Shown here piece after piece: positions 47,644-49,616 of a DNA stretch of 64,000 nt. Below the pieces are notes generated by a model. That model had not been told where the DNA came from and searched no databases. It was given only the letters and a program-made list of their open reading frames with translations. Source of the DNA: Desulfovibrionaceae bacterium (GTDB lineage Bacteria > Desulfobacterota > Desulfovibrionia > Desulfovibrionales > Desulfovibrionaceae); NCBI GenBank assembly GCA_015709315.1, contig JACCQI010000003.1:1-64000 (forward strand). The letters are read 5' to 3'. Each line of letters starts with the position of its first letter. Within the stretch, counting starts at the first letter, position 1. Made by a program: the position numbers and the translations under genes.

Positions 47644-48075
47644 CTACATGTTGTAGAGCTTTTCGCCCGGGATGATGGTTATGCCGTTCTTCTGGAGCAG
47701 TTCGATGCCCTGGTCGGTGCGGTCGAAGCGGAAGATGAGCACCGCGGAATCGCCGGACTGCTGCACGAAGGCGTACATGTACTCGACGTTGATGCCCGCT
47801 TCCTGAAGCATGCCCAGGATGGCGTTCAGCCCGCCGGGGTTGTCCGCCACCTCCACGGCCACCACCGATGTGCGGCCGACGGTGAAGCCCGCCTCCTTGA
47901 GCTTGGTCTTGGCGGCCTCGAAATTGGATACGATGAGCCGCAGGATGCCGAAGTCCGAGGTGTCGGCCAGGGACAGGGCGCGGATGTTCACGCCCGCTTC
48001 GGACAGAATGCGGGTGACCTCGGCCAGGCGGCCAGCACGGTTTTCCAGAAATATGGAGAGTTGATCGACTTTCAT
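47644..48075 (-). CDS. Tandem ACT-domain protein
   Basis: [49 protein letters not shown]. Confidence 0.9.
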
Positions 48076-48101
48076 GGGATTCTCCTTGTTCATTGGCATT
48101 G

Positions 48102-49406
48102 TTAGCCTTCTTTCCTCTTGTCGATGATGCGCTTGGCTTTGCCCCTGGAGCGCTCAATGCCCTTGGGTTCCACCAGCTTGACCTTGGCGGTGACGCCGAG
48201 GAACTCCTTAATGTTTTTCATTACCTTTGATTCGATCTTCTGTAAACTCTTGATTTCGTCGGAGAAGATGGACTCGTTGACTTCCACTTGAACTTCCAGG
48301 GTGTCGAGGTTGCCCTGGCGCTCCACCACAAGCTGGTAGTGGGGGGTCAATCCCTCGGTTTCGATGAGGATGGTCTCGATCTGGGATGGGAACACGTTGA
48401 CGCCGCGGATGATCAGCATGTCGTCGGAACGGCCGGTGACGCGCTTCATGCGGGCGGTGGTGCGGCCGCACCTGCACGGCGTGGTGTTCAGGGTGGTCAG
48501 GTCGCGGGTGCGGTAACGGATGAGCGGGATGCCTTCCTTGGTCAGGGTGGTGAAGACGAGTTCGCCTTCCTGACCCGGCTCGACGATCTCGCCGGTCTGC
48601 GGGTCGATGGTTTCCGCCAGGAAGTGGTCTTCCTGGATGTGCAGGCCGTCCTGGACCTCGCGGCATTCGATGGCCACGCCCGGTCCCATGACCTCGGACA
48701 GGCCGTAGATGTCGATGGCCGTGATGCCGAGTTTCTTCTCGATCTCCACGCGCATTTCGTTGGTCCACGGTTCCGCGCCGAAGATGCCGATCCGCAGCGG
48801 CAGCTCTCGGATGTCGATGCCCATTTCCAGGCCGGTCTCGGCCAGGAACAGGGCGTAGGAGGGAGTGCCGCAGATGACGTCGGGGGCGAAGTCCTTGAGC
48901 AGGGTGACCTGGCGCTTGGTGGCGCCGCCGGAAACGGGCACGACCGTAGCGCCCAGAGCCTCGGCCCCGTAGTGCACTCCCAGGCCGCCGGTGAACAGGC
49001 CGTAGCCGTATGCGTTGTGGACGCTGTCGGCGGCGGATGCGCCCGCGGCCATCAAGCAGCGGGCCATGAGTTCGCCCCAGTTCTCGATGTCGCGCTTGGT
49101 GTAGCCGACGACCGTGGCCGTGCCGGTGGTGCCCGAGGAACAATGGATGCGGACGATCTGGTCCTTGGGCACGGCGAACATGCCGAATGGATACTGGTCC
49201 CGCAGGTCCTGCTTGGTCGTGAACGGCAAAAGCGAGATGTCCTTCAGGCTCTTGATGTCCTGAGGTTTGACTCCCTTTTCGTCAAATTTTTTCTTGTAGA
49301 ACGGGACGTTGGCGTACACGCGCTCGCATTGAGCCCTGAGCCGTCGCAACTGGACCAGTTCCAGTTCCTCGCGGGGCATGGTTTCGTTCTTCACATCGTA
49401 GATCAT
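48102..49406 (-). CDS. paaK: Phenylacetate-CoA ligase (AMP-forming)
   Basis: [40 protein letters not shown]; strong SD AAGGAGG before ATG at 49406. Confidence 0.92.
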
Positions 49407-49457: not shown

Positions 49458-49488
49458 AAAAAAACCACGGTCTTTACAGCCCGTGGTC
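49458..49488 (-). terminator. Attenuator terminator (segments 3:4) upstream of paaK
   Basis: Minus strand GACCACGG-GCTGTAAAGA-CCGTGGTTTTTTT. Confidence 0.8.
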
Positions 49489-49544
49489 GGTTTCGGCACA
49501 TCTTCGCCAGTCAGGTATCCACGAGCTTCCTCTCAGGAGCCCGT
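49479..49544 (-). promoter_or_regulatory. Competing RNA segments of a putative Phe attenuator
   Basis: Minus strand: 1 = ACGGGCTCCT (49535-49544), 2 = AGGAAGCTCGTGG (49519-49531), 3 = ACCACGGGC (49479-49487). 1:2 and 2:3 pairings are mutually exclusive, as are 2:3 and the 3:4 terminator. Confidence 0.75.
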
Positions 49545-49580
49545 AAAAAAGAATGCGTGGGAAGATAGATATTTTTGCAT
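49533..49580 (-). CDS. Putative phenylalanine leader peptide MQKYLSSHAFFFTGS
   Basis: ATG CAA AAA TAT CTA TCT TCC CAC GCA TTC TTT TTT ACG GGC TCC TGA on minus strand; Phe codons immediately precede attenuator segment 1. Confidence 0.7.
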   Translation of the reverse strand: MQKYLSSHAFFFTGS

Positions 49581-49587
49581 AGCGGAG

Positions 49588-49616
49588 AGGATGCCCCATG
49601 TTGCATATCGCGTCAA
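49588..49616 (-). promoter_or_regulatory. Putative sigma70-type promoter for the leader/paaK transcript
   Basis: Minus strand TTGACG-N17-CATCCT; expected start site falls at or next to the leader ATG. Confidence 0.45.

Follow-up and report, generated by a model that had tools for sequence, protein, structure and literature searches.

In Escherichia coli, the pheL leader peptide controls pheA by attenuation. The pheM leader likewise controls its operon, pheST, by attenuation (PMC9291695), and in both systems a short open reading frame with a run of phenylalanine (Phe) codons is followed by mutually exclusive terminator and antiterminator structures; the targets encode chorismate mutase/prephenate dehydratase and Phe-tRNA synthetase, respectively. 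Ribosome-mediated attenuation is also used by trpL (rnTrpL) of S. meliloti (Alphaproteobacteria), which carries Trp codons, controls trpE, and has a transcript that was measured to begin with the leader AUG (PMC7298713). Phe T-boxes (RF00230) take tRNA-Phe charging as their input too, but they read the tRNA directly and without a leader peptide. For the gene set discussed here, the 2009 Geobacter genome paper reported a conserved sequence 5' of iorAB-paaK (Gmet_P1827 and GSU1739.1), listed among biosynthetic operons but left unexplained and without a proposed mechanism, and filed the operon under tryptophan biosynthesis (PMC2700814).

The element described here has the organization of pheL and pheM but precedes paaK and an ACT-domain gene, and unlike those leaders it is probably leaderless and has no detectable Rfam match. 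We regard it as very probably a ribosome-mediated transcription attenuator of the trp/phe type, tying expression of paaK and the ACT gene to charged tRNA-Phe. The class is classical and the target, paaK, is new: a full-text search, with most subscription-journal papers outside its reach, returned no description of an attenuator or a Phe T-box before paaK. The earlier note's statement that such a target was undescribed thus stands, with the qualification that the unexplained Geobacter sequence had already been listed 5' of iorAB-paaK (PMC2700814).

All parts of the element lie on the minus strand at 49458-49616 of the window (the whole 64,000-nucleotide stretch of DNA analysed). A 15-codon leader peptide ORF (MQKYLSSHAFFFTGS, 49533-49580), without a Shine-Dalgarno (SD) sequence and ending in UGA, contains the three Phe control codons TTC TTT TTT (49545-49553). 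Segment 1 (ACGGGCTCCT, 49535-49544) is predicted by folding to pair with segment 2 (AGGAAGCTCGTGG, 49519-49531) in a protector hairpin. Segment 2 includes AGGAAGCTCGT (49521-49531) and GCTCGTGG (49519-49526), the latter being the antiterminator partner of segment 3 (ACCACGGGC, 49479-49487, containing CCACGGGC at 49479-49486). Segment 3 is common to the antiterminator and the intrinsic terminator, whose 5' half is ACCACGG (49481-49487) and whose 3' half, segment 4, is CCGTGGT (49464-49470), ending in a T7 tract (49458-49464). The 1:2, 2:3 and 3:4 helices therefore overlap, and are followed by T7 and then by paaK and the ACT gene on the same strand. The minimum free energy fold of the whole element consists of the 1:2 and 3:4 helices (-50.1 kcal/mol, z = -2.5). 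The earlier note had described this ORF with its three Phe codons, the segments, the terminator stem and the T7 tract, and each is found as described; its account was correct as far as it went, and omitted the promoter (TTGACG/CATCCT).

The -35 hexamer TTGACG is at 49611-49616 and the predicted -10 hexamer CATCCT at 49588-49593, 7 nt 5' of the leader ATG, with a 17 nt spacer between them. In 52 leaders the spacing between TTGAC and the leader ATG is fixed: counted from the first -35 base, the ATG follows after 33-38 nt, and after 36 nt in most of them. The -10 variants in relatives include CAATCT, CACTGT and CAATAT. The -10 matches sigma-70 poorly, and a consensus scan (requiring 9/12 promoter consensus matches and a terminator loop of 3-8 nt) reported neither the leader promoter nor the terminator; the promoter assignment therefore rests on conservation. 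With this promoter, the first transcribed base would be approximately the A of the leader ATG, and the leader peptide is thus probably translated from a leaderless mRNA. Of the 52 leaders, 8 have an SD-like 4-mer 5' of their ATG, whereas all 52 have one 5' of paaK. The predicted start resembles that of S. meliloti trpL, where it has been measured. We also observe that a motif, AACATGRGGCA, is conserved through the promoter spacer and -10 region (49588-49611, minus strand) in the window and in relatives, beyond what a sigma-70 spacer needs; an operator is one possible role for it, an unusual promoter element another.

The target gene paaK (48102-49406, minus strand) encodes a 434-residue PaaK-family aryl-acetate CoA ligase, most likely starting at 49406, with a strong SD sequence, AGGAGG, at 49420-49415. 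Its product matches TIGR02155 over the full length with 622.0 bits, just below the curated cut-off of 646.3, and the closest solved structures are the phenylacetate-CoA ligases 2y27 and 2y4o; we take it to be PaaK-like, with phenylacetate the presumed substrate. Its operon partner (47644-48099, minus strand) encodes an ACT-domain pair protein (PF19571, E = 3e-28). The gene order iorA-iorB-paaK-ACT is found across many phyla. In this genome iorAB is unlinked to paaK, being on another contig 3' of an unrelated gene, and no leader of this kind was seen before it; the Geobacter-type loci examined likewise show no Phe leader 5' of iorA.

The element is conserved throughout the genus, which is probably Pseudodesulfovibrio. 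A DNA search over 36 genus genomes, together with tblastn anchored on paaK, recovered 27 paaK-upstream regions, and the short ORF is present at the same place in all 27. A covariance model built from 25 of these regions detects the element in 35 of the 36 genomes, exactly once in each, with every checked copy directly 5' of paaK; the sole genome without a match is 81% complete. Because of this conservation a chance origin of the element can be excluded. Elsewhere in the family the model gives only a few weak matches. One of the weak matches, by R1, is L238 from G177; the 1.6 kb examined there contains no homologue of paaK, iorAB or ACT, and we take the match as chance.

Leaders of the same kind are found at paaK in peripheral genus members and other Desulfovibrionaceae genera (MIKLFFFRFFFFMGLP, MNAFFTRFFFFMNLT, MLKQFFTVFFLFMNPT, MINHIFFPFFFFFFFKTEI, MNNHGFFPFFFGFCHFFMTQN, MQESTSPLCFTGFFFGFFFRRPIQPVA and MWRNSLFFFRLKTPRTPTGP), and 5' of paaK-ACT in a genome from another family of the order (MQLLNYATDKFNFPFFAFFNFNKYYMSVA). 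Beyond the order, Desulfobacterota of other orders have leaders 5' of paaK (for example MKDRFFFYFLGGFFFKKSTHDRLI, MRFRFFYFGFFSFLGGFFFRKSIHGPAR and MSKLPARPADFGDFFFFRRSSHASAGSAP) and 5' of iorAB-paaK-ACT (MMDKGFLFFSYMYFKIRVCP). The Desulfobacterales-type leaders differ in primary sequence and follow the same logic, with 2:3 pairing of GTCT[A/T/G]CCCA with TGGG[T/A/C]AGAC (L035, L050 and L054), in the variants GTCTACCCA with TGGGTAGAC, GTCTTCCCA with TGGGAAGAC, and GTCTGCCCA with TGGGCAGAC. The comparison of paaK-upstream regions that the earlier note had called for thus finds the Phe cluster and the alternative helices retained in the genus, in other genera and in another family, and orthologous loci lacking them are confined to lineages that lost the element or never had it.

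At paaK the attenuator is absent from most of the other Desulfovibrionaceae genera examined, and in several lineages the leaders contain few Phe codons (MKLLLSPRPFPLTSPR, MKLSLSPRHFRRAFPG and MHNPCNRHDFWSTSLR), so that the sensor is weakened or lost there. The absence of the element from many genera and the loss of most Phe codons in some members together point to repeated gain or loss. Genera without the attenuator still have a similar TTGAC...GGCA promoter at paaK. In one subclade of the genus (L020, L025, L027 and L172) the terminator and promoter are kept and the leaders are Phe-poor (HFRRAF, HFRLAF and PFPL); the early stop codon and the CGTGG antiterminator strand are missing as well from L027 and L172, which looks like a switch in decay.

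The arrangement of the Phe codons fits that of control codons. Phe makes up 27.5% of residues over 47 distinct leader peptides; by frame there are 253 Phe codons in frame 0 and 123 and 135 in the others, and frame 0 is strictly the richest in 46 of 50 leaders. From the end of the last Phe codon to the antiterminator strand (segment 2) the distance is 18 nt in most leaders. When folded as free RNA, 49 of 50 leaders are predicted to form the terminator, and when a ribosome is masked at the last Phe codon (with segment limits set from the alignment) 47 of 50 are predicted to form the 2:3 antiterminator, these and the following counts being of sequences and not of phylogenetically independent events. 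The 1:2 protector hairpin is predicted in 38 of 50 free RNAs and is weak in several relatives. In the terminator stem 99% of cells are paired, with 28 two-sided changes and compensatory changes at three pairs, and none of 500 shuffles scores as high. For the 2:3 antiterminator 93% are paired, with five two-sided cells, and the observed pairing is equalled or exceeded in 9 of 500 shuffles; this covariation signal is modest because segment 2 is nearly invariant. In L184 segments 2, 3 and 4 have all changed together (CTTGTGG, CCACAGG and CCTGTGG). Several features of the attenuator class can thus be read from the sequence, namely a short ORF with clustered codons for the regulatory amino acid, an intrinsic terminator before the first structural gene, and an antiterminator strand in common with the terminator; in the masking simulation the control codons are placed such that a stalled ribosome hides segment 1 and frees segment 2. 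These orthologous Phe clusters and alternative helices support the trp/pheA-type logic that the earlier note had put forward.

Leaders of this class also precede other aromatic amino acid genes in the family, and the weaker covariance cross-matches outside paaK that could be assigned all precede aromatic amino acid synthesis genes (ADH synthase and trpB). In the genome under study, a Phe/Tyr/Trp leader (MTTATVSNAYFSNFYFWYWYGRARGLGRGVA; G000:C24, L285:3557-3730, plus strand) with a terminator (GGGGCCGCGGGCGAAAGCCGGCGGCCCC-TGTTTTTT) lies 5' of ADH synthase (AroA'), in an operon that also carries a dehydroquinate synthase II-like gene and pheA; TTGACA is 37 nt before its ATG and it is apparently leaderless. 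Phe/Tyr-rich leaders with a terminator (MHNQATFNSFYFSYYYGESACGYGYCV and MYSNIHNNSFYFSFYYCESACGYGYCV) precede ADH synthase in L236 and L239, from genus g39 of the family, and L237 (G070:C10, minus strand) has a Trp attenuator with leader MQNINNTLTSSYSWWWLW 5' of trpB, with TTGACA 36 nt before the ATG, and again apparently leaderless. Scanning found no Phe leader with a terminator at the pheS locus or the immediate pheA locus of the genome under study. These leaders point to a wider use of leader-peptide attenuation by Desulfovibrionales, across aromatic amino acid genes.

An unrelated regulator with the same input is found at paaK in clostridia. Sixteen clostridial paaK genes (L070, L072, L077, and 13 in one family: L265, L267-L275 and L277-L279) have a T-box directly 5' of them whose specifier is UUC (Phe), in a loop reading GAAG-UUC-G in 15 of them and GAAAU-UUC-A in L077. 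The specifier reading was validated on T-boxes of the same genomes, giving UUC for two pheS genes, AUC for ileS, AUG for metS and UGC for cysE, each of these genes being confirmed with NCBIfam. A link to tRNA-Phe through tRNA genes located close to some clostridial paaK genes was considered and rejected, those in the one locus checked being tRNA-Asn and tRNA-Met. The attenuator and the T-box are both predicted to switch paaK on when tRNA-Phe is uncharged.

We propose that transcription starts at or beside the leader ATG and that a ribosome translates the 15-codon leader. With ample Phe-tRNA the ribosome would reach the UGA, leaving segment 2 covered or paired with segment 1, and with segment 2 occupied the 3:4 terminator would form and paaK would not be transcribed. 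With Phe-tRNA scarce the ribosome would stall on the Phe codons and hide segment 1, segment 2 would pair with segment 3, no terminator would form, and transcription would read through into paaK and the ACT gene. It is extremely unlikely that the terminator is instead constitutive, with the T-rich stretch a mere U-rich linker and its Phe codons incidental: T-rich DNA does yield Phe codons by chance in any frame, and the other frames here also hold many, but those of the leader are phased to one frame starting at a fixed distance from the promoter, their runs are broken by whole codons (FFWF, FFQF and FFFRFFFF), they lie a fixed 18 nt before the segment that competes with the terminator, and the clostridial paaK has a Phe T-box. 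On the frame phasing and spacing of the Phe codons we reject the chance linker. The leader is almost certainly not a metabolite riboswitch or protein-bound leader (responding, for example, to phenylacetate or phenylacetyl-CoA) in place of a translation sensor; conserved helices could in principle house a ligand or protein site, but conservation falls on the promoter, the start of the ORF, the Phe cluster and segments 1-4, leaving a variable interval from segment 2 to segment 3, and Rfam release 15 covariance models, amino-acid leader families among them, give no match to the element at the gathering score and none even at E up to 5. A known Rfam leader family is accordingly rejected, and there is no T-box (RF00230) covariance match in the window. 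An action mainly in trans, like that of the rnTrpL RNA and peTrpL peptide, has a precedent in the leaderless S. meliloti attenuator RNA (PMC7298713), and termination here would yield an RNA of about 123 nt, but we consider it highly unlikely since the peptide is poorly conserved beyond the Phe cluster and nothing points to any trans target.

A different question is what a functioning attenuator controls paaK for. PaaK is best known from catabolism and IorAB is commonly treated as an enzyme of peptide fermentation (e.g. PMC5817080), so paaK could serve Phe catabolism or fermentation (Phe to phenylpyruvate, phenylacetyl-CoA and phenylacetate), with a different rationale for its control. We think this unlikely. 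Anti-termination at Phe starvation would turn a catabolic gene on when its substrate is scarcest, the CoA ligase consumes ATP while the final CoA release of a fermentation yields it, the clostridial T-boxes at paaK have the same polarity, and leaders of the same class in the family precede ADH synthase and trpB. Expression of paaK when tRNA-Phe is uncharged fits an anabolic aryl-acid route and not catabolism, and the predicted functions of paaK-ACT, with iorAB in many phyla, are compatible with aryl-acid assimilation into Phe. On the simplest reading PaaK activates phenylacetate to phenylacetyl-CoA, which IorAB would reductively carboxylate to phenylpyruvate for transamination to Phe, the substrate and the direction of flux both being conjectural. 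A precedent for aryl-acid assimilation through indolepyruvate oxidoreductase in maripaludis is among the work cited in PMC4162585, and a citation in PMC7356843 indicates that rumen cultures can make Phe from phenylacetate.

The mechanism is a textbook one, yet the target of attenuation points to the direction of a common pathway: the usual annotation of PaaK and IorAB is a catabolic one, and two unrelated regulators in two phyla follow the logic of biosynthetic genes. The approximately 50 aligned Phe attenuators, apparently leaderless, also form a natural set for studying leaderless translation coupled to attenuation. We consider it probable that tRNA-Phe control, found independently in Desulfobacterota and clostridia, marks the widespread IorAB-PaaK-ACT module as a Phe-making route of anaerobes that bypasses the shikimate pathway, with environmental phenylacetate as the source and with feedback sensing as a possible role of the ACT protein, and it becomes directly testable whether sulfate reducers and clostridia assimilate aryl acids into Phe.
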